Below, piece after piece: positions 3,153 to 42,195 of a stretch of DNA of 64,000 nt. Source of the stretch: Acidobacteriota bacterium (GTDB lineage Bacteria > Acidobacteriota > JAAYUB01); the NCBI GenBank assembly GCA_029565065.1, contig JAKQOW010000017.1, forward strand, positions 124,001 to 188,000, in the 5' to 3' direction. Position 1 is the stretch's first letter. Each line of letters opens with the position of its first letter. A model generated the notes under the pieces. It had not been told where the DNA came from. It did not search any database and saw only the letters and a program-made list of their open reading frames with translations. Position numbers and translations under genes: made by a program.

Positions 3153-3248
3153 GGATCATGCCTCCCCGTGGATGATACGGTCCATTTCAGCATAAGAACG
3201 AATTCGGTCCAAACGCTTTCTGGACGGCGGGCCACGCTTCGGCTCTGG

Positions 3249-3275
3249 TTGGAAACCGGTCGATTCATATATACT
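3249..3275 (+). promoter_or_regulatory. Candidate promoter for the ankyrin gene
   Basis: A -10 box TATACT (3270-3275) lies downstream of TTGGAA (3249-3254) with a short 15-nt spacer. It sits in the only AT-rich part of the divergent intergenic region, about 65 bases before the start codon. The spacing is suboptimal, so the -35 assignment is weak. Confidence 0.4.
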
Positions 3276-3341
3276 GAATGCAACTACAATCCGGTGGCGA
3301 GCGTTCGGCTTTCGATTGATCCCGATCTGATGGAGGCGACC

Positions 3342-5018
3342 ATGACCGCAATCCGGTTGCACATCATCGCGCTGCTCGCGACACTCAACCTGACGGCGGG
3401 GCTCGCGGCGGCGCCACTCCCGGGGCGGGCCGACGTGACCCTCACCGTGGACGGGCAGGCCATCCGGCTGGTCCACGCGTACGCTCGGGTGGAGCTGAAT
3501 ATGGACAGCGTCGAAGAGCTGGCGGTGCTCCTCACCGACCGGCCGCTCTCGGTGGAGCTGCTGGACCGGGGCATCCCGCTCCATGAGCTCCTGGCCAACG
3601 CCGGCCAGGCGCACGGACTCCATTTCTCGCTCACCGGCGAGGGCCGGCCCGAGGGGTGGAACGTGGCCCACCCCTCGCTGAGCACGGGCTGCGCGGTGTG
3701 CAGCGACTGGGACGTCGCGGCCACCCGGACCGCTGGTGCGGTGAACGGGCGGGTGTTCACACGAAAACCTCAGCAGACCAACGGCCGGACTTGGTCGTTC
3801 AGCGGCGAGTTCCATGCCGCCGTGAAGCCGGGCTGGGAGGCAGCCGCCGAGGCTGCCGCCACGCCGGCGCAGCGCAAACTCCGCAAGCAGCTTCGGGCCG
3901 AGGGATTGCATTTCACGCCGGATTGGTTCTTCACCGGCGCCCTCATGAACGCCGGCAATGTGATCCGGTACCTGGATGCGGGTATGCTGCCCGACACGCC
4001 CAATCCGTCAACCGGCGACACCCTGCTCCTGGAGATGCTGGGGGGTGATCTGAGCGACGGCCAGCGGGCCGCGGTGAAGGAGCTCCTCCGGCGGGGCGCC
4101 GACGCCAACCGCGTGTCACGGCAGGCCGGCGGAACCGCTCTGGCCCGGGTGTATTGCTGCGCCGACATCGCGGGGGCGCTGCTCGATGCCGGCGCCCGGC
4201 TGGATGCGCCCTCGGGTCAGAGAGGACGGACCGCCGGCCAGGCGCTCATGGATGCGGCCATCGCCCTGTCAAAGACGGACGTGGTCCGCCTGCTCGTGGC
4301 CCGCGGTTACCCGGTGGCCGCGGAGCGCGACCGGCTGCTGAAGGACGCGGTGGGCCGGCCGGAGGTTGAGAAGATCCTCCGGGAGGCGACGGGAGCCGGC
4401 GGCAGCCGGCCGCCTGCGGAAGTCAGGCCGTCCCGGCCGCCCGCCGAAGCGGCACCGGCGCGCGCACCCGTCCGGCCGATGCCGAGCCGGGCGGAGGCGA
4501 TGGCGACTTTGGAGACGCGGGGCCTGCCCCCCTCCCAGGATGCGCTCTGGCGGGCGCTCATGGACGATGACGCCGAGACGGTGCGGCTGCTGCTGACGGC
4601 GGGGGTGAGCCCGAACCAGCCGCGGGCGCACGACGGCGCCACGCCGCTGCTCTTTGTGACCTTCCGCCAGTATGGCAAGAAGTCCGCCATTCAGACCGCA
4701 CTGGTTGCGGATCTCATCGCCGCCGGCGCCGATGTGAACCGGGCCGACAGCAACAACGCACCGCCCATTCTCCATGCCGCCCAGTACTGCGAAGCGGCGG
4801 CGGTGCGCGCCCTGCTCAAAGCCGGCGCCCGCACCGATGTGAAGGCCAAGGGAGGCGCCACGCCCATGATGATGGCGGTGCTCTTCAACCGGGCGGACAA
4901 CGTGGCCGCGCTGCTCGAGGGGGGCTACGACGTGAAGCCGGAGTTGGACATGCTCCGCGGCATCGCCGCCCCCTATCCGGACATTTTGAAGATGATACAT
5001 AGAGCTGTGGCACAATAA
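3342..5018 (+). CDS. Secreted ankyrin-repeat protein
   Basis: The protein has 558 residues. The start is the ATG at 3342, five bases after GGAGG; an in-frame ATG at 3330 is possible but has no ribosome site. Residues 1-24 form a signal peptide ('IIALLATLNLTAGLAAA'). A unique domain of about 200 residues contains several Cys ('TGCAVCSDW'). Two sets of ankyrin repeats follow ('ELLRRGADANRV', 'ALLDAGARLDAP', then 'LLLTAGVSPNQP', 'DLIAAGADVNRADSNN', 'ALLKAGARTDVKAKGGATP'), separated by a Pro/Ala-rich linker near residues 345-375. Ankyrin repeats bind protein partners. With a signal peptide this one should act in the periplasm or outside the cell. Its partner is unknown. Confidence 0.85.
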   Translation: MTAIRLHIIALLATLNLTAGLAAAPLPGRADVTLTVDGQAIRLVHAYARVELNMDSVEELAVLLTDRPLSVELLDRGIPLHELLANAGQAHGLHFSLTGEGRPEGWNVAHPSLSTGCAVCSDWDVAATRTAGAVNGRVFTRKPQQTNGRTWSFSGEFHAAVKPGWEAAAEAAATPAQRKLRKQLRAEGLHFTPDWFFTGALMNAGNVIRYLDAGMLPDTPNPSTGDTLLLEMLGGDLSDGQRAAVKELLRRGADANRVSRQAGGTALARVYCCADIAGALLDAGARLDAPSGQRGRTAGQALMDAAIALSKTDVVRLLVARGYPVAAERDRLLKDAVGRPEVEKILREATGAGGSRPPAEVRPSRPPAEAAPARAPVRPMPSRAEAMATLETRGLPPSQDALWRALMDDDAETVRLLLTAGVSPNQPRAHDGATPLLFVTFRQYGKKSAIQTALVADLIAAGADVNRADSNNAPPILHAAQYCEAAAVRALLKAGARTDVKAKGGATPMMMAVLFNRADNVAALLEGGYDVKPELDMLRGIAAPYPDILKMIHRAVAQ

Positions 5019-5037
5019 TTTACCGAAGTGGATCGCC

Positions 5038-5066
5038 TTGACAGTTGTAGTTATTTTTGTTACACT
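5038..5066 (+). promoter_or_regulatory. Strong sigma-70-type promoter for the Cys-rich secreted protein
   Basis: TTGACA (5038-5043) and TACACT (5061-5066) are separated by 17 bases, a near-consensus housekeeping promoter. It lies after the stop of the ankyrin gene (5018) and about 25 bases before the next start, so the downstream gene can be transcribed independently. Confidence 0.85.
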
Positions 5067-5090
5067 AAAAATATATTTAGGGGGTGTAAA

Positions 5091-5813
5091 ATGTTGAAAT
5101 ATTCTGTTTGTGTCTTCAGTGTATTTCTTCTCACCGTTTGCGTCGGAACTGCATTCGGTGATGCGGACTGCAGTTGCAGCGGGCAAGGCTGCAGTTGTTC
5201 CGCTCACTGCGTACCACCCACGCCCCATGCATACTGTACCTGTGATCCGCCTCCTTGCTCATGCGGTTGCTACGCCAAACCGCCTCAAGATCCGCCGAAA
5301 ATGGGAGCGACCTGGACGTGGTTTGAAGTGGCCCGGATTCTGCAGCAACAGGTTCTCCTGACCGACAAGACGATCGCCCTCAGGGAGATAATGCTGAAGA
5401 GCGGACTGAAAACGGAATTGATCGTTTTTCCAGCGGAGTCGATCCATCCGGGAAAGACCGGGCAGTTCATCCTTCTGGACTTGCTGCGGAGTGCCTCCCG
5501 AAGGGATGGGGATGTGCGAGTGGGCGGCATTCCAATCTTGTCCCAGCCCCGTTTGCTTGATCCGTCCACCACACCGATCTGCCTACGCCTGACTTCAGCC
5601 TCGCCTGCCGACTTGTTCGTCTTCATCTGGTCGTTCTATGGGGAACGGTGGGATTTCTTGCTGCAGCCACAAGTCCAGAATCGAGAGTTCGCGCTCTCGG
5701 TGAGCGGTGTATCACTCGATGAGTTGGAAGGCATCGTCTGGGATAAACTGTTCACAGAAGACAACTCGATCGAATTTCCCACTCGACCGGGCGGGGCAAA
5801 CGAGATCAAGTAG
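5091..5813 (+). CDS. Secreted protein with Cys-rich N-terminal segment, function unknown
   Basis: The protein has 240 residues. The ATG at 5091 follows AGGGGGTG and opens a clear signal peptide (about residues 1-23, ending 'GTAFG'). The mature N-terminus carries a dense run of about twelve Cys in 40 residues ('CSCSGQGCSCSAHC', 'CTCDPPPCSCGCY'). A Cys-free domain of about 170 residues follows, with 'WFEVARILQQQVLLTDKTI' and many beta-like stretches. I recognise no family. The Cys cluster suggests metal binding or disulfide cross-linking outside the cytoplasm, which is inference. The gene is visibly more AT-rich than its neighbours, so transfer is possible. It converges on the Lhr gene. Confidence 0.75.
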   Translation: MLKYSVCVFSVFLLTVCVGTAFGDADCSCSGQGCSCSAHCVPPTPHAYCTCDPPPCSCGCYAKPPQDPPKMGATWTWFEVARILQQQVLLTDKTIALREIMLKSGLKTELIVFPAESIHPGKTGQFILLDLLRSASRRDGDVRVGGIPILSQPRLLDPSTTPICLRLTSASPADLFVFIWSFYGERWDFLLQPQVQNREFALSVSGVSLDELEGIVWDKLFTEDNSIEFPTRPGGANEIK

Positions 5814-5876
5814 CTTCGGCAGGTTATTCAAAGTAAAGCGATAACAGATTAAGTTCAACACGGGCAGGGAATGTTT

Positions 5877-8800
5877 TCAGACCTGCCGCTCCAGGAGGAG
5901 ATCCCGGCCGTCGCGGCGGAATCCGACGGCGCGGAGCGCTTCGGCGTACGCCCCGGCGACGGCTGGCGCACCGTTGATCTCGGCCACGCGGACGCGGGCC
6001 GGCGGCCGCGCCGACCGCCGAGTCCAGGCGGGGAACATCGCCAGCGCGCGCGGCAGCACCGGGTCGTCCGGCGGCACGGCGATCGCCAACTCTTCGCCGA
6101 GCCGCCGGGAGACCAGCACGACGTCCGAGCCACGGAAAACCAGGTGGCTCGACGGCAGTCGCGCCGGCAGCGCCGGCGTCAGTCCCGGCAGGGCCAGCCC
6201 GCAGGGGGAGGCGGGATCGGCGGCGCAGAGCCAGTACACGGCGTCGGCGGGGAGCGGCGCGGCCAGCGTCCGCGCCGCTGCCGGCGCGGCGAACTGGATC
6301 CCGGGCACCCCGTCAAAGAAGCGCCCGGCCACCACTTCGCCCGACAGCTCCATGAGGCGGAGCGCCGGGAAGACCGCACCCCAGCGCAGCTCCGGCCGCT
6401 CGCCGGCCAGCAGCTCTCGGAACACCACGCCGTAGCGCCGCAGGAGCAGGCGGACCCGCTCCTTGGCGCCCTCCAGGCGGTCCAGGGCGTCGACGGCTTC
6501 CGCCGCTGCCGGCAGGCTGCGCCAGTGGCCGGTCCACGGCTGGCTGGTGCGCCAGCGGGCCAGCCCCGTACGGCGACCGCGTCCGGCCAGGGCGGCGACG
6601 GACTCGGCCTCGAAGCGGTGCTCCAGCCCTCGCCGGACCGCGGCGAACGCGTCGTTGGTGAGAACGCCCGCCCAGGCCAGTTGCCAGAGGCTGCGGGTGG
6701 CGGTCTCGCTGGACAGACCCGTCTCCGCGATCAGGTCGTCAAGCCGGAAGCGGCCGCGGTTGCCGCGGAAGAACGCCGCCAGCTGCGCCGTTGCCGGATC
6801 CGCTGCCGGCCCGGCCGCATCCGGCCGGGCGAAGAGCGCCAGCTGGTCTTCGAACGAAAATGCCAGACGCTCCGCGCCGTCGCCGAACCAGGCCGGGCCC
6901 TCGCCGGCCATGAGCGCGTCGAGCCATTCGGGCCGGTAGCCGGCGAGACGGGCGGGGAGGATCTCCGTCTCCCAGAGCTCCACCCGCGCGCTCCAGCCCA
7001 TGAGTGCGTCGAGCCGCGCCCGCAGCGCGTCGGGCCCGTCGTCGTCGGCGAGCAGCCCCTGATGCACCGCCAGAAACAGCGGCAACTCCGCCAGCGGCCG
7101 CAACGGCGCCGCTGGCCGGGCCTCGTGGCGGCGGAGCCGGAGCAGCATGTCTAGGTTGCGCCGGTCGCAGACGGCATCCGGATCCTCCGCCGGCGGCTCG
7201 CGGAAGGGGCCGGCGGCGAGGTGGCCGTCGGCCAGCAGCCGCGCCACGGCGGTCGCCACCCGCTCCATGGGCACGCCCAGCGCTTCGCCGATTTGTTGTG
7301 GAGACACCGGGCCGTAGAACGCCAGCCACTCCCGCAGGAAGGCCGCCAGCTCAATCTCATCGCCGGCCAGGGCGTGGGTCACATGGTCTGCTTCCGTGGC
7401 GGAGACGCGCACGGCGGTGCCGGCCGGTCCGGCCAATGGGACCACCCGGCCGGCAAGCTCCGCCTCCAGTATCGCTGTGTCAGCGTCCGCATCCCGCGCG
7501 GCCGCAACGAACAGGGCCGCCCACTCGGCTTCGGGAATCGCCCGCCGCTCACCCACCCAGAACGCCAGTTCTTCGGCGGTGCCGGGGGCGTAGCCGGGCG
7601 TCAGGCGGTGGAGCTTGGCTTGGAATGCGTCCAGCAACTCGCCGGGCAGGCGCGGCCGCGCCGCCGGGTCCCGGGCCAGGGCGTCCAGGACGTTCGCGTC
7701 CGAAGGCAGCTCCACCGGCGCCTCGGGGGCATCGTCGCCGTACATGTAGGTTCCGGTCTGGCGCCAGAGCACCGCGGCGGCGAAGGGGGACGGCGCGCAC
7801 GTCGCCACCTCGGTGACGCGGATGGCGCCGGAGCCGAGCTCCGCCAGGAGCCGCTCCAGGGCGTCCAGGTCGAAGTCGGTTGCCAGGCACTCCCGCCACG
7901 CCTCGGCCAGGATGGGGAACTCGGGATCGTCCCCCACCGCCGCCAGCAGCTCCTTGGCGCGCAGCCGATGCAGCCACAGCGGCGTCCGCCGGCGGAAGCC
8001 CGCGCGCCGCAGCAGCAGAGCACGGCCGGCGCACTCGCGGAAGCGGGCGCCGAAATAGCCGGTGGCGCCGAGGCGCGCCCGGACCAAGTCGCGAACGGTG
8101 GCCGGCGTCACCCATTCCAGCAGGCGGGCGACGGTCACCTCCGGCGGCGCCTCCAGAAGCACGCAGTCGTCGCTCACGAAATAGGGGACCGCGCGGCCGA
8201 GGTGCTCCGCGCAGGCGGCGGCCGCGGCCAGGGCGAAGGGGCGGTTGACGCGGCCGCCCCAGCCGGTGTGGAGCAGGAGCCGGCGCCGCCGCTCGGGGTG
8301 GACCGGATCGGGACAGCTCTCGGCGAGCAGGTGGTGCCGGTGCGGCAGCGGCGCGCCGGCGGCCTCGCGTTGGCGGCGCAGGTAGTCGCCCAGCGCGCCG
8401 GCGGCCTCGGGCGTCAGGTGGTAGCGGGCCGCCAGCTCGCCGGGGAAATCCGGATCATCCAGCCGGCCGTCGGCGGTTTCGAGCAGGCCGCCGATCCGCT
8501 CCGCCAGCGACCAGGTTCGGCCCTGCTCCTCGGCGCGCCAGAACGGGACCAGGGAGTGGCCGCGGCCGCCAGGGACCGCCTCCACCTCGTTGGCGGTGAT
8601 GCGGGTGATGCGCCAGATCTGGTTGCCCAGGGGGAAGGCGTCGCCGAGCGACCGCTCCCAGACGAACTCCTCGTCGAGCTGGCCCACGGCCGCCTTCGTG
8701 TCGGCGGCGCGCAGGGTGAAGTAACCGCGGTCGGGGATCACCCCGCCCGACAGGAGCAGCAACCCGCGCACGTGGGGCCGGGCGCGGGCGCGCCCGTCGG

Positions 8801-10271
8801 CGTCCACCGCCAGCCGCGGCTGCAGCTCCCGGAGCCGCGTGCCGGCCCAGCGGCCGGCCAGCATGGCCACGACGCGGTCGAAGTCCTGCCGCTCCAGGCC
8901 GTGGTAAGCGGCACAGCACCGGACCTCGGCGAAGAGTTCGTCCAGCGGGCGGGCGCCGTCCACGGTCATGGCCAGGATCACCTGGGCGAGCACGTCCAGC
9001 CCGCCGGGTCGAGGGACGATAGGCTCGATGGCGCCCTCGGCCACCGCTCGGGCCGTGGCCGCCGCGTGGACAAGCGCCGGCGGGTGCAGCGGCAGGAACC
9101 GGCCGCATGACGTTCGGCCCACGCCGTGGCCGGCTCGGCCGATGCGCTGCACCGCCGAGGTCACGGAGTAGGGCGGCTGGACCAGGACGACGGCCTCGAC
9201 GCTGCCGATGTCGATGCCGAGTTCCAGCGAGGAGGTGGCCACGATGGCGGCCAGCTCGCCCCGCTTGAAGCGCGCCTCCACCGCGGCGCGGATCTCGCGG
9301 GCCAGCGCCCCGTGGTGGGAGTAGGCCACGTCGCGGCCGGCCGACTCGTTGATGGAACGGGTGAGTCGTTCCACGAGCCGGCGGCTGTTGGCGAAGAACA
9401 GGGTGGTGCGGTGGCGGTCGATCTCGCCGCGGCACCGCTCCGCCACCTGCAGCCACCAGTGGGCCGGCGGCTCGCCCGGCGCCGGCGCGGGCGGAGCGTC
9501 CACCCGCAGGTCGTAGCGCCTGGCGCCGGGCGCGTCCACGTGCTCCACCGCCCGCGCCTCATAGAGGGATTCGGGGGACTCGGCCACGAGGCGGTAACCG
9601 CCCATGAACGCGGCCACCGCCGCCGCCGGCCGCACCGTGGCCGACAGCGCCACGCGCTGGAACTCGCCGCCGAGCAGTGCCAGCTGCTCCACTGCGGTCA
9701 TTAAAAATAGGCCGCGCTTCTCGCCGGCGACGGCGTGGATTTCGTCCAGGATGACGGTGGCCGTACCCTGCAGGGCGCGCCGGCCCGAGGCCGACAACAG
9801 GAGGATGTTCAGGCTCTCGGGCGTGGTGATGAGGATCTCGGGTGGGCGGCGGAGGATCCGGCGGCGCTCGCCGGGATCGGTGTCGCCGGTGCGCACCGCC
9901 ACGCGGATCTCGGGGAAGGGGACGTCCCGCGCGGCGAACAGCTCCCGCAGCTCCGCCAGCGGCCGCTCCAAATTCTGCCGGATGTCGTTGCCCAGCGCCT
10001 TGAGGGGCGACACGTACAGTACGCGAGCTTCGGCGGGGGATACGACGCCCGCGGCGAAGCGGTTGAGCGCCCACAGGAATGCCGCCAGTGTCTTGCCGCT
10101 GCCGGTGGGCGCGGTGAGGAGCACGTGCCGCCCGGCGGCGATGGCGGGCCAGGCGAGCGCCTGCGCCGCTGTGGGCTGGCCGAGGCGGGTGCGGAACCAT
10201 TCCGCCACCAGCGGGTGGAAGGCGGCCAGCGGATCGGGTGCGGCGGCGGGCGGTGGGGACGACTCGGTCAT
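5877..10271 (-). CDS. lhr: Large Lhr-type ATP-dependent helicase
   Basis: The protein has 1464 residues, typical of full-length bacterial Lhr. Helicase superfamily 2 motifs are in order: Walker A 'APTGSGKTLAAF' (Lys60), 'PLKALGNDIRQNL', 'TTPESLNILLLS', the box 'VILDEIHAVAGEKRG', motif III 'LSATV', then in the second RecA domain 'ATSSLELGIDIG' and 'QRIGRAGHGVG'. The remainder matches the winged-helix and long C-terminal region of Lhr. Lhr is a 3'-5' translocating helicase that unwinds DNA and RNA:DNA hybrids, and is induced by DNA damage in mycobacteria. It is a cytoplasmic single-gene unit here. Its promoter abuts the periodic repeat element at 10335. Confidence 0.95.
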   Translation of the reverse strand: MTESSPPPAAAPDPLAAFHPLVAEWFRTRLGQPTAAQALAWPAIAAGRHVLLTAPTGSGKTLAAFLWALNRFAAGVVSPAEARVLYVSPLKALGNDIRQNLERPLAELRELFAARDVPFPEIRVAVRTGDTDPGERRRILRRPPEILITTPESLNILLLSASGRRALQGTATVILDEIHAVAGEKRGLFLMTAVEQLALLGGEFQRVALSATVRPAAAVAAFMGGYRLVAESPESLYEARAVEHVDAPGARRYDLRVDAPPAPAPGEPPAHWWLQVAERCRGEIDRHRTTLFFANSRRLVERLTRSINESAGRDVAYSHHGALAREIRAAVEARFKRGELAAIVATSSLELGIDIGSVEAVVLVQPPYSVTSAVQRIGRAGHGVGRTSCGRFLPLHPPALVHAAATARAVAEGAIEPIVPRPGGLDVLAQVILAMTVDGARPLDELFAEVRCCAAYHGLERQDFDRVVAMLAGRWAGTRLRELQPRLAVDADGRARARPHVRGLLLLSGGVIPDRGYFTLRAADTKAAVGQLDEEFVWERSLGDAFPLGNQIWRITRITANEVEAVPGGRGHSLVPFWRAEEQGRTWSLAERIGGLLETADGRLDDPDFPGELAARYHLTPEAAGALGDYLRRQREAAGAPLPHRHHLLAESCPDPVHPERRRRLLLHTGWGGRVNRPFALAAAAACAEHLGRAVPYFVSDDCVLLEAPPEVTVARLLEWVTPATVRDLVRARLGATGYFGARFRECAGRALLLRRAGFRRRTPLWLHRLRAKELLAAVGDDPEFPILAEAWRECLATDFDLDALERLLAELGSGAIRVTEVATCAPSPFAAAVLWRQTGTYMYGDDAPEAPVELPSDANVLDALARDPAARPRLPGELLDAFQAKLHRLTPGYAPGTAEELAFWVGERRAIPEAEWAALFVAAARDADADTAILEAELAGRVVPLAGPAGTAVRVSATEADHVTHALAGDEIELAAFLREWLAFYGPVSPQQIGEALGVPMERVATAVARLLADGHLAAGPFREPPAEDPDAVCDRRNLDMLLRLRRHEARPAAPLRPLAELPLFLAVHQGLLADDDGPDALRARLDALMGWSARVELWETEILPARLAGYRPEWLDALMAGEGPAWFGDGAERLAFSFEDQLALFARPDAAGPAADPATAQLAAFFRGNRGRFRLDDLIAETGLSSETATRSLWQLAWAGVLTNDAFAAVRRGLEHRFEAESVAALAGRGRRTGLARWRTSQPWTGHWRSLPAAAEAVDALDRLEGAKERVRLLLRRYGVVFRELLAGERPELRWGAVFPALRLMELSGEVVAGRFFDGVPGIQFAAPAAARTLAAPLPADAVYWLCAADPASPCGLALPGLTPALPARLPSSHLVFRGSDVVLVSRRLGEELAIAVPPDDPVLPRALAMFPAWTRRSARPPARVRVAEINGAPAVAGAYAEALRAVGFRRDGRDLLLERQV

Positions 10272-10334: not shown

Positions 10335-10809
10335 AATCACCACGGAGGCACGAAGAACACGAAGAGAGCATTCCATTTGCCATTGATCATTTTTTATTTT
10401 GTCAGTTTTCATTTCAGATTCGGTGAATGGGAGGAGATTAATGGTTATTGTTGATTGTTTATATCTTTTTGGTTATGTGGAGCCGAGCCGGATTGTGCTG
10501 GGACCTGGGTGCTGGGACCTGGGGGCTGGGACCTGGGGGCTGGGTCCTGGGTGCTGGGACCTGGGGGCTGGGACCTGGGACCTGGGTGCTGGGACCTGGG
10601 ACCTGGAACCTGGAACCTGAGGCCTGGGATCCGGGACTCGGGGCCGAGGTCCAGGATCTAAAACCTAGCTCCCAGAACCAAGAACCGAGAACCAAGAAGC
10701 AAGAACCGAGAACCCAGAACCCAGAACCGAGGTCCTAGGTCCGATGTCCGACGTCCGATGACCGACGTCCAACATCTTCCTTTGTGTCCTTTGTATCTTC
10801 GTGGTGATT
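10335..10809. repeat. Periodic 7-nt repeat element bounded by 34-nt inverted repeats
   Basis: The left arm (10335-10368) and the right arm (10776-10809, inverted) begin with identical AATCACCACG and match at 26 of 34 positions. Inside, 10498-10770 is exactly 39 consecutive heptamers with no phase slip. The units drift from CTGGGAC/CTGGGTG/CTGGGGG through CTGGAAC to CAGAACC/GAGAACC/AAGAACC and then GATGTCC/GACGTCC. The AT-rich part 10373-10425 also shows 7-nt periodicity (TTCCATT, TGCCATT, GATCATT). The block fills the whole space between the divergently oriented promoter of lhr and the 3' end of the radical SAM gene. I see no open frame in it that is not simply a product of the period. Confidence 0.9.
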
Positions 10810-10827: not shown

Positions 10828-11862
10828 TCAGTCGTCTTCTGCGAGCGGGCACTGGGGGTCGTCGGCGAGGTAGTCGCCGGTGAGCGCATAGGCCAAGGCC
10901 CGGCACCCGGCGCAGTCGGCCACGCCGCAGTAGCCGCACCGCAGGCCGCTGAGCCGCGGGCGCAGGGCGCCCATGGAAAAGCGCGCCAGCCGGGGGAGGA
11001 TGTCGGCGAAGGGTTCCGCCACGGCGTTGCCCAGCGGCACCGGCAGCCGGCGGCACGGATAGACGTCCCCGTCCGGCATTAGCGCCATGGACTCGTCGCC
11101 CAGATTGCAGAGCGCGCCGCGGAGCGGATCCGTCTCACCGGGCGCCAGCCCCAGCCAGAAGGCGCGGTACGGCAGCAGGTCTTCAGGTTCAGCCTCGAGC
11201 CCGGCCGCGGCGGCGATGGCCGCCACGGCGCCGCGCCAGTCGGCGGCGGTGAGCACCTCGGCGGCGAGCCGGCGGCCGCGGCCCAGGGGGACGAAGCGTT
11301 CGAAGATGATGCCGTGGAGGCCCGCGCCGCGCGCCCACCGCACGGCCTCGGCGATGCGGCCGGCGTTGTATCGCGCCAGGGTGAGCATGACCACCAGCAG
11401 CTTGCCGGTGCGCCGGAAGCGCTCCAGGTTGGCGGTGACGCGGTCGAAGTTGCCGCGCCCGCGCACGGCGTCGTTGGCCGCCGCGTCGGCGGCCTCCAGC
11501 GAGATCTTCAGCGCGCCGATTCGGGGGGAGGCGGCGATGAGCGCCAGGGTGTCGTCGTCGGCCACGGTGCCGTTGGTGATGATGTGCGCCTCGGCCAGAT
11601 TGGCGAAGCCGTGCAGATGCGCCACCAGATCGAAAAATCCGGGCAGGAGCAGCGGCTCGCCCCCTGTAAGGTTCACCGACACCGGCCGCGGCGCCAGCGC
11701 GCCGAACACGCGGTCGGCCAGGCGGCGGAGCGCCGCCGGCGCCAGTTCGCGGCTCCCGTCGAACGCGTCCTGGTAGCAGTGGGTGCAGCGCAGGTTGCAC
11801 CGGTCGGTGAGGTGCCACTGGAAACCGAAGAGCGGAGCGTTGTTGGGTTGCTGGTCGTTCAT
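10828..11862 (-). CDS. Radical SAM/SPASM domain protein
   Basis: The protein has 344 residues. The radical SAM cluster motif CxxxCxxC is Cys22, Cys26, Cys29 in 'DRCNLRCTHCYQ', followed by the 'LTGGEPLL' and 'ITNGT' motifs of the SAM barrel. The C-terminus has a SPASM-like set of Cys ('YPCRRLP', 'LRCGYCGVADCAGCRA', 'DPQCP') that binds auxiliary Fe-S clusters. Such enzymes modify ribosomal peptides or mature sulfatases and cofactors. The opening 'FGFQWHLTDRCN' reminds me of peptide maturases, but no precursor peptide or recognition-domain gene is evident next to it. The substrate is unknown. A TATAAT stands 28 bases upstream of the start, leaving a very short leader without a clear ribosome site. 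Confidence 0.85.
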   Translation of the reverse strand: MNDQQPNNAPLFGFQWHLTDRCNLRCTHCYQDAFDGSRELAPAALRRLADRVFGALAPRPVSVNLTGGEPLLLPGFFDLVAHLHGFANLAEAHIITNGTVADDDTLALIAASPRIGALKISLEAADAAANDAVRGRGNFDRVTANLERFRRTGKLLVVMLTLARYNAGRIAEAVRWARGAGLHGIIFERFVPLGRGRRLAAEVLTAADWRGAVAAIAAAAGLEAEPEDLLPYRAFWLGLAPGETDPLRGALCNLGDESMALMPDGDVYPCRRLPVPLGNAVAEPFADILPRLARFSMGALRPRLSGLRCGYCGVADCAGCRALAYALTGDYLADDPQCPLAEDD

Positions 11863-11953: not shown

Positions 11954-12138
11954 TCATTTGTCATTCGTTAATTGGTTATCGGCCATTGCTTATTTGTGAT
12001 CGGCTATTTGGAGTCCTGATCCGCCAGCGTGAACCTCGAGCCTCGAGCCTCGAGCCTCGATTACGATTACGATTACGATCACGATTACGAATTACGATTA
12101 CGAGCACGAACCTTCAACCCTCAACTCTCAACCCTCAA
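11954..12138. repeat. Mixed heptamer and hexamer repeat patch
   Basis: Eight AT-rich heptamers with fixed A at position 4 (TCATTTG, TCATTCG, TTAATTG, GTTATCG, GCCATTG and others) occupy 11954-12009. Heptamers GAACCTC and three GAGCCTC occupy 12031-12058. Hexamers GATTAC/GATCAC/GAGCAC with one 7-nt unit occupy 12059-12107. Heptamers CCTTCAA, CCCTCAA, CTCTCAA, CCCTCAA occupy 12111-12138. It fills the space between the divergent radical SAM and reductase genes. Confidence 0.85.
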
Positions 12139-12229
12139 CGATTGGGAACGAGCCCCGAATTCCGGCAACTTTTCCCCCCGCTCCACTCGTATACGTCACC
12201 GTCATTATTCCGAATCATTGGAGCGCAAC

Positions 12230-13540: not shown

Positions 13541-13572
13541 GCCAAGCCGGGCGGACCGTCTGACGAAAAAGT

Positions 13573-13612
13573 GAGTGGGTGAATCGGTGAGTCGTTGAAT
13601 CGGGAGACGGGA
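13573..13612. repeat. Octamer repeat patch
   Basis: Units GAGTGGGT, GAATCGGT, GAGTCGTT, GAATCGGG, AGACGGGA follow one another with an 8-nt period, 32 bases after the reductase stop codon. The remaining intergenic sequence to 13748 shows nothing else convincing. Confidence 0.65.
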
Positions 13613-13748
13613 AACCTCAACTCGCGGTCATCACCCCTCAACGATCAACCGGCGGCAAACCTGTGCATCGGGGACTTGTAAACCATCAAACCCGATCAAG
13701 CAAGCGACGGGTGCCGGTGCTAGCCCCAAGCCTCCGGTCTCGAGTCGC

Positions 13749-14218: not shown

Positions 14219-14326
14219 TCGGATTTTCTGAGACAACCCGCCGGAAGAAGCATCAAATACAGCATTCCGTGGAGATGAGATCGCAGGCCGCCCGGCCTTG
14301 TAATCTGCATGGTAGAGTGTGCGTCC

Positions 14327-15658
14327 ATGGCCAAACCAACCACTCACTCGCTGGCAAGCCGTGTGCATCGGATGCTGTTTCGGCGCCTGCTGGTCGCCGG
14401 CCTGGTGATCTCCGCCGGGCTGGGCCTGACGGTGCTTCTCTATGAGCGGGACCGGGTGAGCGAGGCGGCGCTGGAACAGAGCCTGCACCAGGCCGAGCTC
14501 TTCACCGCCCGCTACGACCATCTCTTCGCCGATCCGGACCGCCTCGATGGGACGGCCATCCAGGCCGCCATTCGTGAGTTCTCGACATCCCGGGACCAGT
14601 CGGCCCTCGGTCAATTTGTCTACCTGGGCGTGTTCACTCCCGCCGGGCGCCTGGTCACGGAGGGTTTCAGCAACCGCGTTGCCGTCCCGGTAGCGGTTCG
14701 CCGCACAGCCGCGGCGCTGCGCGCCCAGTCGGTTCCAGCCGAGGGGAGCCGGCGCGAGATCCTGCGGATCGATGGCCGGCCCTGGCTCTGGGTGTCGTTT
14801 CCCCTGACCGGGCGCACCGGCGACCGGGTGGGTGTGGTGAAAGGCGTCTTCGCCTTCTCCGATGACACGATCGCCGATTTCCGCTGGCGCGGCCTGCGGG
14901 CCATGGCCGGCGTGATGGTCGTGGCGCTTCTGACCACGGTGGTCGTCTACCCGATCGTACGCCGCCTGACGGGGCGGGTGACCGAGTTCTCGGTCCGCCT
15001 GCTCGACGCCAATCTGGAGACCCTCGCTTTGTTGGGCAGCGCCATCGCCAAGCGGGACAGCGACACCCACGCGCACAACTACCGGGTGACCATCTATGCC
15101 GTTCGGCTGGCGGAGGCGGTCGGCGTACCGCCGCCGACCATCCGGAGCCTGATCAAGGGCTCCTTTCTGCACGACGTGGGCAAGATCGGCATCCCGGACG
15201 GCGTCCTCCTGAAACCCGGCAAGCTGGATGATGCCGAGTACGCCCTCATGAAGACCCATGTGGAGCATGGCCGCGACATCGTGAGCCGTTCCCGGTGGCT
15301 GCAGGACGCCATGGATGTGGTGTACGCCCACCACGAGCAGGTGGAGGGCCGGGGGTACCCCCGCGGCCTGGCCGGGTCGGATATCCCGGTCACGGCCCGG
15401 ATGTTCGCCATCGCCGACGTGTTCGACGCGCTGACCTCCCGCCGCCCCTACAAGGAGCCGTGGTCGTTCGAGAAGGCGATGGAGATTCTGGCCGAGGGGC
15501 GCGGCACCCATTTTGATCCCGAGCTGCTGGACACTTTCGGCCGGATTGCCCGTCCGCTGTATGACCGCTTCGGCTCTTCGGACGAGGTGCCGGACGCCGA
15601 ACTCAAGGCCATCGTCCGGACTTATTTCAACGACCAAATGGATAGTTTCGACTCCTGA
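14327..15658 (+). CDS. Membrane HD-GYP domain phosphodiesterase
   Basis: The protein has 443 residues from the ATG at 14327; an ATG at 14309 would add six residues, and neither has a strong ribosome site. A transmembrane helix near residues 20-38 and a second near 185-205 bracket a periplasmic sensor-like domain of about 140 residues. The cytoplasmic part is an HD-GYP domain: His-Asp at residues 282-283 in 'FLHDVGKIGIPDGVL', 'HVEHGRDIV', His-His-Glu at 335-337 with 'GRGYPRGL', and 'ADVFDALTSRRPY'. Such proteins hydrolyse cyclic di-GMP. The input signal is unknown. It is convergent with the DUF3052 gene. Confidence 0.9.
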   Translation: MAKPTTHSLASRVHRMLFRRLLVAGLVISAGLGLTVLLYERDRVSEAALEQSLHQAELFTARYDHLFADPDRLDGTAIQAAIREFSTSRDQSALGQFVYLGVFTPAGRLVTEGFSNRVAVPVAVRRTAAALRAQSVPAEGSRREILRIDGRPWLWVSFPLTGRTGDRVGVVKGVFAFSDDTIADFRWRGLRAMAGVMVVALLTTVVVYPIVRRLTGRVTEFSVRLLDANLETLALLGSAIAKRDSDTHAHNYRVTIYAVRLAEAVGVPPPTIRSLIKGSFLHDVGKIGIPDGVLLKPGKLDDAEYALMKTHVEHGRDIVSRSRWLQDAMDVVYAHHEQVEGRGYPRGLAGSDIPVTARMFAIADVFDALTSRRPYKEPWSFEKAMEILAEGRGTHFDPELLDTFGRIARPLYDRFGSSDEVPDAELKAIVRTYFNDQMDSFDS

Positions 15659-15725
15659 CGCCGATTGGTCCGACACCCTTCCGCCACCGCGGTGACGGGT
15701 CGCCCGCCCAATCGGGTCGGGACGG

Positions 15726-16523
15726 TCAGCGGGGGGATTTCCGCCCGAACCCTCGCCAGCGGAAAAGCAGGGCCGACCAGGTGGCGTCGATGCGGCAGAT
15801 CTTGTAGTCCACCCAGCCGGCGGCCAGACCGGCGGCGCGGACCGCCGCCTGGCTCAAGTCCGAGCCCTGACCGGAGGCGCGCTTGGGCCAGGCGAGCCAG
15901 ACCGGCGCGTCGCCCGCCGCGGCTAGAATGCCCGGCAGGCGCCGCTCAAGCTCGGCCGCCCGGAGGAAAAACGCGATCCCGAGATTGCAGTCGTCGATGC
16001 CATCCCTCAGGCAGACACCGGCGGGCAGCACGCCCAGGGTGGCGGCAAAACCGGGCGGCGCATCGGCCAGCCCGACGGTCATCCCCGTCTTGATGCCGAG
16101 TTTTGCCGCCAGGGGCCGGCCGGCGTAGGCGGCGAAGGCCGACTTCGGCCGCCCCGAAGGCGGATCGGGCGGAGCGGCCGACATGGCCCCGGGCAGGGTG
16201 TTCGGGAGGTCGTCCCAGGTGGAGTAAACCGCGTCGGGGAGCACCGCCTGGATTGGGGCGATCTTTTCCGGCGCGCCGCCCACCATCACGATGGGCAAAC
16301 GGGCGGTGGCGCGGCGCTGGCGGATCAGGAGGGCCAGGTCGCGCCCCTGGGACGGCAGCCGGTCCAGGACGACCAGCAGCGCGTCGGGCGGCCCGGCGGA
16401 CAGTTCCTTCAGGAGAGACAGTCCCGCCGGGGGGGTGGCGTCCACTTCGAATCCCAGCGTCCGCAGGCGGGCGGCGTGCGCCGCCGCCTCCTCTGCATGC
16501 CAGTGGATCAGCCGCAGGCGCAC
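15726..16523 (-). CDS. Receiver-like domain fused to DUF3052
   Basis: I place the start at the GTG 16521-16523, with GGAG nine bases upstream. This gives 265 residues and places it just after the preceding stop (16537). An ATG at 16568 would overlap that gene by 32 bases. Residues 1 to about 115 look like a response-regulator receiver ('VRLRLIHWHAEEAAAHAARL', 'DALLVVLDRLPSQGRDLALL', 'LPIVMVGG'). The acceptor loop is one residue short, so phosphorylation is doubtful. The C-terminal part matches DUF3052 ('KLGIKTGMTVGLADAPPGF', 'WLAWPKRASGQGSDLSQ', 'VRAAGLAAGWVDYKICRID'), a family of unknown role. It is likely cotranscribed with the small exported protein upstream. Confidence 0.7.
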   Translation of the reverse strand: MRLRLIHWHAEEAAAHAARLRTLGFEVDATPPAGLSLLKELSAGPPDALLVVLDRLPSQGRDLALLIRQRRATARLPIVMVGGAPEKIAPIQAVLPDAVYSTWDDLPNTLPGAMSAAPPDPPSGRPKSAFAAYAGRPLAAKLGIKTGMTVGLADAPPGFAATLGVLPAGVCLRDGIDDCNLGIAFFLRAAELERRLPGILAAAGDAPVWLAWPKRASGQGSDLSQAAVRAAGLAAGWVDYKICRIDATWSALLFRWRGFGRKSPR

Positions 16524-16536
16524 GGGACGGACTCCG

Positions 16537-17001
16537 TCACGGGACCAGCGGGATCTTCCGGGAGACATCCTCGCGGAGGACGGCGTCCAGCTTGTTCTCG
16601 AGCTGGTAAAAGCGGGTCACCTTCGAGGCGGGCAGGACGGCGCGGAACCTGGCCACCCACTGCCGGCGTGTGGCGAGCAGCGCCTCCTCGAAATCCAGCC
16701 ACTCGTCCAGCAGTTGCCCGGCCTGCAGCTCGCTCAGAGTGGCGGGCGATTGGGCGAATTTCAGGAGACGGTCCACGAGGGGATTGCCCAGAGGCTCGAT
16801 CGCCGCATGGTATTCCCGGTACAGGGGCCAGAACGCCGCCGCCTCCGCTTCGGTGAGCGTCAGGTTGTCGCGGATGATCATCTGCCGTTGGGTCAGGATG
16901 ATCTGGCGGTTCAGCTCGACGCGGGCCCGTTCCTGGGCGGCGGCCCCGGCCGTCAGCAGGCCCAGCAGAATGATGGTGGGGGTCAGGCGACATGGATGCA
17001 T
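16537..17001 (-). CDS. Small exported 'FWPLY' protein, paralogue A
   Basis: The protein has 154 residues with a signal peptide ('IILLGLLTAGAAAQE'). It carries 'LNRQIILTQRQMIIRDNLTL', 'TEAEAAAFWPLYREYHA', a helical middle, 'FRAVLPASKVTRFYQLENK' and the ending 'IPLVP'. Two further copies lie at 17654-18118 and 19377-19868. The pattern resembles small periplasmic helical proteins annotated in Bacteroidetes as putative sensors of ECF-type sigma factors, and more loosely Spy/LTXXQ proteins. No sigma factor is seen nearby, so a sensor role is only a possibility. Confidence 0.7.
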   Translation of the reverse strand: MHPCRLTPTIILLGLLTAGAAAQERARVELNRQIILTQRQMIIRDNLTLTEAEAAAFWPLYREYHAAIEPLGNPLVDRLLKFAQSPATLSELQAGQLLDEWLDFEEALLATRRQWVARFRAVLPASKVTRFYQLENKLDAVLREDVSRKIPLVP

Positions 17002-17110: not shown

Positions 17111-17623
17111 TCAGGGCTGGGGCGTTGGGATGATCGGCTTCAGGTCGTACCCCTGGGCGGCGATGCGCCGGAGGATGTCGTCGTACGCCGCCGGCTCGAG
17201 CGCGGGGGTGCGGCTCAGGATCCAGAGGTACTTGCGGTCGGGGTGCCCCACCACCGCCCAGCGGTAGTCGGGATCCAGCTCGATGATCCAGTAGGCGCCG
17301 CTGAACGGCCAGAAGAACTGGACCTTCAACTTGGCGTTCGTGGCGCGGTCCACCACCCAGGCCTTGCCGCGGGCCTCGCTCGTGTCCCCGTCCTTTTCCC
17401 GGCAGCGGTTGATCACGGTGATCTTGCCGTCGGGGCGCAGCTCGTAGGTGGCGGTGGTCCCGCCGGCGCACTTCTTCTGGAAGAAATTGGGGTAGCGGGC
17501 GATTTCGTACCAGGTGCCGACGTAGCGTTTCAGGTCGACACGATCCACCACCCGGGGTGGCCCGGCCGCCTGCAGGCAGGCGGTGGAGAGGGGGAGCAGG
17601 AGCAGGATCAGGAACCAGCGCAT
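17111..17623 (-). CDS. Bacterial lipocalin (Blc-like)
   Basis: The protein has 170 residues. The N-terminus is a signal sequence ('LILLLLPLSTACLQA'). Cys16 could be lipidated, although the lipobox position -3 is Ser rather than Leu. The lipocalin signature 'LKRYVGTWYEIARYPNFFQKKC' is intact, followed by strands 'TTATYELRPDGKITVINRC', 'LKVQFFWPFSGAYWIIELD' and 'AVVGHPDRKYLWILSRTP'. The family binds lipids and is associated with outer-membrane maintenance and stress. It sits between paralogues A and B on the same strand with short gaps, so one transcript for the group is likely. Confidence 0.9.
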   Translation of the reverse strand: MRWFLILLLLPLSTACLQAAGPPRVVDRVDLKRYVGTWYEIARYPNFFQKKCAGGTTATYELRPDGKITVINRCREKDGDTSEARGKAWVVDRATNAKLKVQFFWPFSGAYWIIELDPDYRWAVVGHPDRKYLWILSRTPALEPAAYDDILRRIAAQGYDLKPIIPTPQP

Positions 17624-17653
17624 GAATCTAGCCTCCAGTCCGGCGCGAGCCGG

Positions 17654-18118
17654 CTATTTCGCCAAGGGGATGTCCTCGGCCGCCTCCGAGCGGACGATGA
17701 TATCGATTTTGTTCTCGATCTGGAAGAATCGGGTCACCTTGACCGGGGGCAGGATGGCGCGGAATTTCGGGACCCACTTCATCTTGAGCTTCAGGTATTC
17801 CTGCTCGCACTTCAACGTGCTGTCCAACAGCCGGGTGGCCTGCTCGTCGGTCAGCATCGTGTAGCTTTGGGAATACTCCATCAGCAGATTGACCAGCTGG
17901 TCGCCCACCCCGGCGACCTCCGCCCGGTATTTCCGGTACAGCGGCCAGAAGGCCGCGGCTTCCGTGTCGGTCAGGCCGAGGTTGTCGCTGACGATCGTCT
18001 GCCGCTGGGTCTGAATCATCTGCCGGTTCAGCTCCACCTCGGAACGCTCCTGAGCCAGGGCGCTCCCGGCCAGCCAGCCGAATGCCGCAACCCACAAGAT
18101 CCACATGTTCCGGCGCAC
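17654..18118 (-). CDS. Small exported 'FWPLY' protein, paralogue B
   Basis: The protein has 154 residues, the same length as paralogue A. I use the GTG at 18116-18118 because GGAGG stands four bases upstream. The signal peptide is 'WILWVAAFGWLAGSALAQE'. The core repeats the family pattern: 'LNRQMIQTQRQTIVSDNLGL', 'TEAAAFWPLYRKYRA', 'FRAILPPVKVTRFFQIENK' and the ending 'IPLAK'. It is followed 31 bases later by the lipocalin. It is divergent from the DUF481 barrel across a 166-base intergenic space. Confidence 0.75.
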   Translation of the reverse strand: MRRNMWILWVAAFGWLAGSALAQERSEVELNRQMIQTQRQTIVSDNLGLTDTEAAAFWPLYRKYRAEVAGVGDQLVNLLMEYSQSYTMLTDEQATRLLDSTLKCEQEYLKLKMKWVPKFRAILPPVKVTRFFQIENKIDIIVRSEAAEDIPLAK

Positions 18119-18284
18119 GTTACCTCCAGTAGGAACAGTCTCGCGATGCCCGTCGCGTCTTCCTTTTGATGAGCGGGGCAGGAGCGGAGTTTCACCCGCC
18201 CGCGGGTTCAGCCTCCCGGCCGCTCGCCGCAACGCCTCGACGGGCGACCCCGCTTTGCTATTGATCGAACCGATCAAGGCCGGT

Positions 18285-19352
18285 ATGATTGCTCCCATGA
18301 TTCACCCCGTTTCATCTTTCCGTCCCGGTCGCATTCGGCTGGTATCGTTGATCCTCGCGACACTCTCCATCACCGCCAGCGCCGCCAAGACCGATGTGAT
18401 CGTGTTGGCCAACGGCAACTCGATCACCGGCGAAATCCGCAGCCTGTCCCGGGGAAAACTGGATTTTAGCACAGACGACATGGGCACCCTCTCTGTCGAA
18501 TGGGACAAGGTGACAAGCATCCGGAGCACCACCCGGTTCCAGGTGCAGACGGCAGTCGGCTTCTGGTTCGCCGGTACCTTCCCACCCAGCGACCGGCCCG
18601 GCTGGATGGTGGTCGCCGGCACGGACGATGTGGTCACCCTGGAGATGGCCTCCGTGGTCCAGATCGACCGGTTCGAGAGGGTGTTCTGGCAGCGCCTCAA
18701 GGGCAACATCGACTTCGGCTTCAACCTGGCCAAGGCGAACGAAAGCACCCAGTACAATTTTGACTTCGGGCTGAAGTACCGGGGCCAGAAGGGATTTTCC
18801 CAGTTCAGTTTTTCGTCCTATCTGAATAAGCAGGAGGGATCCGACTACTCGACGCGCAACTACCTCGAGAACAAGACTGGCTACTACTTCCATCCGGCCT
18901 GGACGGCTTTCGGCATCGTCCAGTTCCAGCAGAACGAGGAACTCGACCTGGCGATTCGTTCCCTGTTCGGCGGCGGCGTGGGGCGCCGCCTCATTGCCAG
19001 CAACCGAATGAAATGGATCGCCGGCGCAGGACTGAGCGCCGGCAGCGAAAAATATTACGGGGACGACGAACCCACCACATTCAGTTCCGAAATACTCCTC
19101 TTGACCGAATGGGAAGCCTTCCGGTACGACCGGCCCAAGCTGGATTTCACGGTAGGCATGACCCTCTATCTGAGCGTCTCCGACTGGGGCCGGGTCCGGA
19201 CGGACTTTTCCAGCAAGCTCCGTTTCGAGCTCTTGAAGGATTTCTTCCTGGTGTTCGGAGCGTACGATTATTATGACAACCAGCCGAGCGAGGAGGTCAC
19301 GTCCGATCACGACTACGGCGTGAACATCTCCTTCAGCTGGACCTTCGGTTGA
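18285..19352 (+). CDS. DUF481-family outer-membrane beta-barrel protein
   Basis: The protein has 355 residues from the ATG at 18285, preceded by AAGG; the ATG at 18297 is an alternative. A signal peptide ('LVSLILATLSITASAA') precedes an N-terminal beta domain of about 100 residues ('VIVLANGNSITGEIRSL', 'STDDMGTLSVEWDKVTSI'), as in many DUF481 proteins. Alternating aromatic strands then form the barrel ('STQYNFDFGLKYRGQKG', 'FSQFSFSSYLNKQEGSDYST', 'AFGIVQFQQNEELDL'), ending with Phe-X-Trp-Thr-Phe-Gly as expected of a barrel terminus. The function of DUF481 proteins is not settled. It lies in a cluster of exported proteins. Confidence 0.8.
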   Translation: MIAPMIHPVSSFRPGRIRLVSLILATLSITASAAKTDVIVLANGNSITGEIRSLSRGKLDFSTDDMGTLSVEWDKVTSIRSTTRFQVQTAVGFWFAGTFPPSDRPGWMVVAGTDDVVTLEMASVVQIDRFERVFWQRLKGNIDFGFNLAKANESTQYNFDFGLKYRGQKGFSQFSFSSYLNKQEGSDYSTRNYLENKTGYYFHPAWTAFGIVQFQQNEELDLAIRSLFGGGVGRRLIASNRMKWIAGAGLSAGSEKYYGDDEPTTFSSEILLLTEWEAFRYDRPKLDFTVGMTLYLSVSDWGRVRTDFSSKLRFELLKDFFLVFGAYDYYDNQPSEEVTSDHDYGVNISFSWTFG

Positions 19353-19376
19353 TCCGGCCCGCCCTGCGCGCCCCGG

Positions 19377-19868
19377 CTATTCGAGGGGCACCACCTGCAT
19401 CGCCGCCTCGTACATGAACAGCGCGTACAGCTTGTTCTCCAACTGGTAGTAGGCGGTCACCTTCTTCTCCGGCAGCACGGCCCGGAAGCGCGGCACGAAG
19501 TCTTGCCGCAGCTTGAGACGCGCCGCCTCAATGGCCAGGTACTCGTCCAGGAGCCAACGCGCCCGCTCGTCGGAGATTTGGCCGTACTCCCGCTCGTAGA
19601 TCTGGTTCATGGTCACGAGACGGTCGTAGAGCGGGTCCAGGCCCTGCTGATACTCCTCGTAGAGCGGCCAGAACACCCCGGCCTGCGCCTCGTCGAGCGG
19701 GAGGGAGTCGGTGATGAACTGGCGGCGGTCCGCGCGGGTGGCAGTCTTGGCGACCTCTTCGGGGGCGTCGGGCACCGCTGGCGGCGTCTTCGCCTGCTCC
19801 ACCCCGCTGCAGGCAATCAGCAGCGCGGCCAGAACGGCCAGCAGCGACCCCATCAGCATCTGCTTCAT
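19377..19868 (-). CDS. Small 'FWPLY' lipoprotein, paralogue C
   Basis: The protein has 163 residues, with AAGGAG upstream of the ATG. The signal ends 'LAALLIACSG', a good lipobox with the lipidated Cys at residue 20. A Pro/Ala linker follows. The core then shares the family pattern: 'RRQFITDSLPLDEAQAGVFW', 'PLYEEYQQGLDP', 'FRAVLPEKKVTAYYQLENK' and the ending 'VVPLE'. Unlike copies A and B it is lipid-anchored. It converges on the DUF481 gene with a gap of 24 bases. Confidence 0.75.
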   Translation of the reverse strand: MKQMLMGSLLAVLAALLIACSGVEQAKTPPAVPDAPEEVAKTATRADRRQFITDSLPLDEAQAGVFWPLYEEYQQGLDPLYDRLVTMNQIYEREYGQISDERARWLLDEYLAIEAARLKLRQDFVPRFRAVLPEKKVTAYYQLENKLYALFMYEAAMQVVPLE

Positions 19869-19966
19869 GGTGATCTCCTTGGCAAGATGGCCGGACGCGC
19901 CCGGCTGTCTGAAGCCGGCGCATCCGGACGCGTCTGAAAGTCTATCACGTTTTGAATCGGGGTGGT

Positions 19967-42102: not shown

Positions 42103-42113
42103 GATTTTCCCTT

Positions 42114-42195
42114 CGTGCTCGTAATCGTACTCGTGATCGTACTCGTGATCGTACTCGTGCTCGTAATCGGGGCTCGCGGTTCGGGGCTCAGGGTT
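42114..42195. repeat. Hexamer then heptamer repeat patch
   Basis: Nine hexamers (CGTGCT, CGTAAT, CGTACT, CGTGAT and repeats) from 42114 to 42167 are followed without gap by heptamers CGGGGCT, CGCGGTT, CGGGGCT, CAGGGTT to 42195. The hexamers are the reverse complement of the GATTAC/GAGCAC family at 2762 and 12059. The stretch 42196-42335 beyond it shows nothing recognisable. Confidence 0.85.

Follow-up and report, generated by a model that had tools for sequence, protein, structure and literature searches.

A modular intergenic repeat built mainly of heptamer arrays in a genus of Acidobacteriota

Heptamer tandem repeats are known from heterocystous cyanobacteria as STRR, and the dominance of heptamers among the long intergenic repeats of bacteria is an old open question. 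In Xanthomonas and Nostoc, heptamers of the form GGGNATC are intergenic and dispersed, with a variable number of units at conserved sites (Rehm 2015, PMC4692102). These repeats prefer four units and form G-quadruplexes in vitro, are rare between divergent genes, and lie nearer the 5' neighbouring gene regardless of its direction; each Xanthomonas genome has 70-75 inverted pairs of them in convergent arrangement (PMC4692102). Mrazek 2007, as quoted in PMC4679880, found that in most genomes heptanucleotides are the commonest class of long simple sequence repeats (units of 5-11 nt), and suggested that the polymerase slips at a 7-nt contact. The quoting article itself (MacGregor 2015, PMC4679880) deals with TAACTGA repeats, which occur in Beggiatoaceae and cyanobacteria.

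Here we analyze a heptamer run in a 64-kb window, the whole stretch of DNA under study, from an Acidobacteriota genome (G000). A sequence-only reading of the window had reported 39 in-phase heptamers at 10498-10770, and we could reproduce this: the run has a single register, with a lag-7 identity of 0.74 and a lag-14 identity of 0.757 compared to 0.17-0.39 at lags not divisible by 7, and TRF returned matching arrays with 0% indels. Sampling 456 kb of the same genome in long stretches that include the window, we found 26 lag-7 arrays versus 0 in first-order Markov sequence of equal total length, which excludes a chance origin for such arrays. The reading had also proposed that the phase is kept while the unit drifts. 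The phase is kept; in place of smooth drift, however, we observed mainly a succession of distinct modules, as the run consists of three arrays (F+, F- and E-) plus a degenerate joint between F+ and F-, and the same succession recurs in equal order at many other loci. The contrast drawn with ordinary tandem repeats, which were said to drift in phase, was mistaken because whole-unit slippage together with point substitution yields a kept phase with changing units, whereas the comparison with STRR-like heptamer repeats was the right one.

The run sits inside an intergenic element at 10335-10809 whose two ends form an imperfect inverted repeat of 30 nt, and the whole gene gap around it is repetitive. 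Read on the plus strand, the modules follow each other as J+, H/I/L, F+, F-, E-, J-. The outer arm J+ (AATCACCACGGAGGCACGAAGAACACGAAG, 10335-10364) has a period of 9, contains a J token and pairs with its inverted partner J- (CTTTGTGTCCTTTGTATCTTCGTGGTGATT, 10780-10809) at 80% complementarity over 30 nt. Positions 10373-10430 hold degenerate words that resemble TCATTTG (I) and GTGAATCG (H), with an H token at 10415, and the AT-rich part at 10380-10440 has a weaker heptad signal (lag-7 identity about 0.43-0.44, p=0.0055 versus shuffles). Linker L (GGTTATTGTTGATTGTTTATATCTTTTTGGTTATGTGGA, 10443-10481), whose token is found here and at several other loci, belongs to a family with a consensus that is itself a degenerate heptad, (GGTTATT)n, with a lag-7 identity of 0.64.

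Array F+ (10498-10637) comprises about 20 units of the G3N4 type, CTGGGAC, CTGGGTG or CTGGGGG (TRF period 7, 20.0 copies, 0% indels). Part of it is a 14-nt dimer, CTGGGACCTGGGKG, with a lag-14 identity of 0.83, and 15 G-tracts follow each other at an exact 7-nt pitch between 10500 and 10598. In the degenerate F+/F- junction (10638-10671), which is partly missing in the ortholog from a second genome of the genus, G001, adjacent units match at 3-5 of 7 bases, and the lag-7 signal across this stretch (0.53, p=0.001 versus shuffles) is weaker than in the arrays. Array F- (10672-10728), also called by TRF, has about 8 units of CAGAACC, GAGAACC or AAGAACC with a lag-7 identity of 0.86 and is a rough reverse complement of F+, while array E- (10729-10770) is made of GAGGTCC, GATGTCC and GACGTCC, carries E- tokens and has a lag-7 identity of 0.78. 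Both flanking ORFs are on the minus strand: a helicase-like ORF of 1464 aa (5877-10271), which we take to be an Lhr-type large helicase, has its start toward the element, and a 344-aa ORF (10828-11862), presumably radical-SAM-like, has its stop toward it; they are 90% and 93% identical in G001, respectively. An Rfam search of the 64-kb window yielded tRNAs only.

To follow the element between relatives we compared three genomes of the genus (G000, G001 and G002), all fragmented assemblies with gaps at some elements. G001 is syntenic at the locus and holds the same element in the gap, with an array shorter by gaps of 98, 49 and 7 nt, corresponding to 14, 7 and 1 whole units. An assembly artefact or a coding repeat in the ORF at 10448-10738 could in principle account for the run. 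Repeats do assemble badly, and N-gaps lie at some elements in G002, but G001 is a separate genome with an equal element at the equal place. The frame is open for 96 codons, yet none of the three ortholog gaps is a multiple of 3, so that they break it, and module tokens lie almost wholly outside genes. We give these two explanations next to no weight and rejected the coding repeat. Translated through the array, the open frame reads as a 7-residue repeat. Elsewhere in the window, three gene-sized stretches of 2.3-2.6 kb (3236-5824, 14227-16546 and 17560-19969) occur in G000 but have no counterpart at those places in G001.

Gain and loss of whole 7-nt units, the test that the sequence-only reading had suggested, is also seen beyond this locus. 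When only orthologous elements that align at >=88% identity are counted, a multiple of 7 is the length of 16 of the 33 gaps that reach 5 nt (p=3e-6), and multiples of 5, 6, 8, 9 and 10 showed no excess in the same elements. Across all orthologous elements the count is 27 of 87 gaps of at least 5 nt (p=5e-5), so that many gaps have other lengths, above all where elements align poorly and in the module with 6-nt units. The phase is thus kept because arrays change in length by whole units, whereas their bases change by substitution. All testable orthologous sites in G001 and G002 carry an element, and module content at orthologous sites often differs between relatives; therefore the position of an element is old while its inside turns over. 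At one site in G000 (C34:54487-54877, in L041), three tandem blocks of about 124 nt (E- D- C- plus linker) stand where both relatives have at most one, which is a higher-order duplication atop the unit repeats. At another site, in G002 (C13:1792-2356, in L078), a 564-bp insertion within a C module is absent from G000 and carries repeated GCGCAGCCCCGCGCACGCGGGGC-like palindromes, possibly representing a separate mobile repeat.

We read the run as the central part of a noncoding, modular repeat between genes that turns over in whole units, probably by slippage or recombination, and is itself probably a tolerated product. The patch at 10335-10809 is a string of short arrays, mostly at a 7-nt pitch. 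Whole units are added to or dropped from each array, most likely through slippage during replication and through unequal recombination, and single-base substitutions occur alongside; the register survives and the unit sequence changes. The arrays are polar modules whose order is fixed, and from either end of the gene gap it is the G-skewed strand that runs inward. We infer slippage and recombination as the molecular step from the gap lengths, and the patch appears to be mainly their tolerated product, kept out of promoters. The variation by whole units described for Xanthomonas at conserved sites (PMC4692102) and the slippage at a 7-nt step proposed by Mrazek 2007 (quoted in PMC4679880) speak for this reading as well. 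Because junctions and linkers are homologous between copies, the family probably dispersed by copying ahead of the split between the relatives compared here; since then it has kept its positions while changing internally. Slippage alone leaves unexplained the mirrored order, the inward polarity regardless of gene direction, and the many unrelated words at a 7-nt pitch.

The family is large. We identified 47 array clusters in the 456 kb, or about 450 genome-wide by extrapolation, with a density that differs widely between contigs. All 47 are built from a common vocabulary of about 11 polar modules, mostly 7-mers with some of 6, 8 or 9 nt: A GTGAACA, B GATAGGA, C CGTAAT, D GAGGCTC, E GGACATC, F CTGGGAC, G GTTGATG, H GTGAATCG, I TCATTTG, J CACGAAGGA and K CGGGGYT, plus linker L. 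Module tokens were picked by eye from few loci before counting, which is a weakness of the counts. A pattern for F matched 304 times in the genome compared to 14 times for a reversed control pattern, and dispersed homologous copies with 70-90% local identity number in the hundreds. Modules occur in similar number in G001 and G002, next to none are present in the one sister-genus genome, and few or none in about 55 other genomes of the phylum. Token clusters mark further elements in the window at 2384-2812 (B+ C+ D+ E+ ... C-), at 11954-12139 (I+ L+ D- C- G-, position conserved in G001) and, as a small element, at 13571-13649 (H+ G-), where G001 has additional C-, G-, F+ and D- tokens. Period-6 arrays of CGATTA/TCGTAA at 12058-12109, 2425-2484, 2761-2812 and 42113-42169 of the window belong to the same element family, and some of the indels that separate relatives in these arrays are 6 or 12 nt long. 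In G002 (C104:7743-7911), dense F matches alternate CTGGGAC and CTGGGAT over about 24 units on the minus strand, apparently a recent dimer expansion.

The modules obey a grammar of order and polarity. In mixed-sign module pairs, leaving out F and G, the plus module comes first in 215 cases and the minus module in 16; G-skewed plus modules lie to the left within a gene gap and minus modules to the right. Single-sign elements fall in the half of the gap predicted by their sign in 20 of 21 cases, however the flanking genes are oriented. Left halves have a GC skew of +0.21 and right halves one of -0.17, a measure independent of token orientation, with this order seen in 31 of 33. Going outward, modules are arranged E/K, D, C, B, A, with an alternative arm I/L, H, J. 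The register often extends across module boundaries, with the modal phase found for F- to E- in 34 of 40 pairs, K+ to E+ in 20 of 21, E+ to F+ in 8 of 8 and F+ to F- in 22 of 29 (counts that are not independent), and shared ancestry of the copies simply explains this. At 10498-10770 the F+/F- register is phase 0, one base off the family mode of phase 1, so the phase over this boundary is conserved between relatives yet not universal.

None of the 47 clusters lies mainly within a gene, and the gaps that elements occupy are biased by gene orientation. Convergent gaps hold 16 of 44 elements versus 9 of 115 other gaps (p=3.6e-5), and divergent gaps 5 of 44 versus 42 of 115 (p=0.0017), as expected if elements are kept from promoters. 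The same enrichment and depletion would also suit a functional nucleic-acid structure, in which a long hairpin between the convergent arms, or a G-quadruplex in the G3N4 array, terminates or insulates transcription, with pairing under selection; promoter avoidance alone, however, could yield the bias. The element at our locus folds far better than shuffles (z -8.8), and the mean folding z is -2.5 over elements versus -0.6 in other gene gaps. G3N4 heptamers with other words make G-quadruplexes in vitro (PMC4692102), and the 15 G-tracts of F+ are compatible with such structures. On the other hand, about a third of elements fold no better than shuffles, so elements do not in general need to form a hairpin, and we dropped the idea that a conserved hairpin is what unites them. 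The two arms of an element often differ in their modules (H+ with A-), the modules change fast from one relative to the next, and an intrinsic terminator, of which we found 1 versus 0.6 expected, was rejected as being at chance level. The patch possibly folds into hairpins or G-quadruplexes, but we consider selection for such a structure an unlikely explanation for the repeats.

Hundreds of dispersed copies, an outer inverted repeat at the locus and a linker common to several loci are also what a miniature mobile element of the foldback/MITE or REP type would leave, still transposing and with arms that happen to be tandem repeats. The arms of foldback elements are likewise short tandem repeats, and REP/BIME mosaics and foldback elements resemble our family in being intergenic, mosaic, inverted and high-copy. 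They differ in that we found here no fixed short palindrome or fixed ends, no mobilising gene and no empty sites: elements end in variable modules without fixed termini, the ends vary between loci, and 0 testable orthologous sites in G001 and G002 were empty. Y1 transposases are present in the genus, but matches to PF01797 occur in repeat-carrying and non-carrying genomes alike, and we did not favour a Y1/RAYT transposase as the mobiliser since it is not specific to carriers; a reverse transcriptase (PF00078) was not found in the genus. We regard ongoing transposition as improbable.

Measured against the described heptamer repeats, the element is of the same kind as the GGGNATC repeats and not the same repeat. 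Like those, it has a heptamer pitch with a G-tract per unit (15 in F+), is intergenic, dispersed and scarce between divergent genes, varies in unit number at conserved sites and forms convergent inverted pairs. The rule that GGGNATC repeats lie nearer the 5' gene is equivalent to the inward polarity found here. Those repeats, however, use one word per genome, whereas about 11 words occur here in a fixed nested order with linkers; our units are more degenerate, and our arrays are enriched between convergent genes. The words also differ, being CTGGGAC, GGACATC, GAGGCTC and others here in place of GGGNATC. The Mrazek 2007 repeats share the dominance of heptamers but are near-perfect SSRs judged singly, and ordered multi-word elements are not described in the part of PMC4679880 that quotes them. 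The TAACTGA repeats and STRR are, like ours, intergenic heptamer tandem repeats with a patchy taxonomic spread, yet they consist of a single conserved word, usually in few copies and often just upstream of starts, and the portion of the literature on them considered here reports no inward polarity. The 49 GGGACCG elements of Geobacter metallireducens are also heptameric, with a word close to F (GGGACC), and differ in having a fixed four units, in lying also within genes and in lacking modules (PMC2700814). Intergenic heptamer repeats are therefore already known, while their ordered multi-word grammar, for which we found no description in the literature on such repeats, appears to be new.

The 7-nt pitch extends beyond the genus. 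In about 1.28 Mb from about 40 other phylum genomes, short arrays have mostly period 7 (25 arrays) or 8 (15), and the remaining periods from 4 to 13 are represented mostly by 0-2 arrays, apart from period 12 with 4, partly coding by eye. Words in these genomes differ (AAGGCAG, GGTCAGA, GGACTTT, GAGTACT and others), so the 7-nt pitch is common and the words are local. The sequence-only reading had envisaged a process with a 7-nt step, and the prevalence of these periods agrees with that part of its claim; the change of unit at our locus, however, is largely one of distinct modules. A dedicated 7-nt-stepping process might lay down polar arrays, for example by extending broken 3' ends with G-rich heptamers that are then joined, like fused telomeres. 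Strict inward polarity from both gene edges, the nested mirrored order of modules, and a 7/8-nt pitch with different words across the phylum would all suit such a process, but neither a reverse transcriptase (PF00078) nor Ku (PF02735) had a match in the genus, for which reason we discarded reverse-transcriptase templating and Ku-dependent end joining. The junction register and the linkers common to copies also point to copying rather than independent end addition, and we judge the stepping process highly improbable. In a broader, very unlikely version, a 7-nt-step process laying G-rich polar arrays inward from gap edges would be conserved across the phylum, with the word changing by genus, nested modules recording successive words in time, and the Xanthomonas and Nostoc repeats arising from the same process. 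With crude gene calls, 12 of 20 arrays in other phylum genomes follow the polarity rule (p=0.64).

Copying followed by whole-unit turnover, the reading we prefer, can be studied further in this genus, which offers hundreds of loci, about 11 words per cell, and relatives with about 90-95% nucleotide identity in aligned stretches, so that the effects of unit size, slippage, polarity and position are separable statistically. The strict inward polarity fits the unexplained positional rule of the Xanthomonas and Nostoc repeats and gives any mechanism something specific to explain. These repeats also break assemblies, and they might be usable as markers for strains. We searched the literature for arrays of this type in Acidobacteria and found none. 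In another family of the phylum, we observed close convergent inverted heptamer pairs, as in Xanthomonas, at L107:3453-3635 and L095:14043-14181, reading GGTCAGA/TCTGACC (L107:3453/3574) and GGCAGNA/TNCTGCC (L095:14043/14139).
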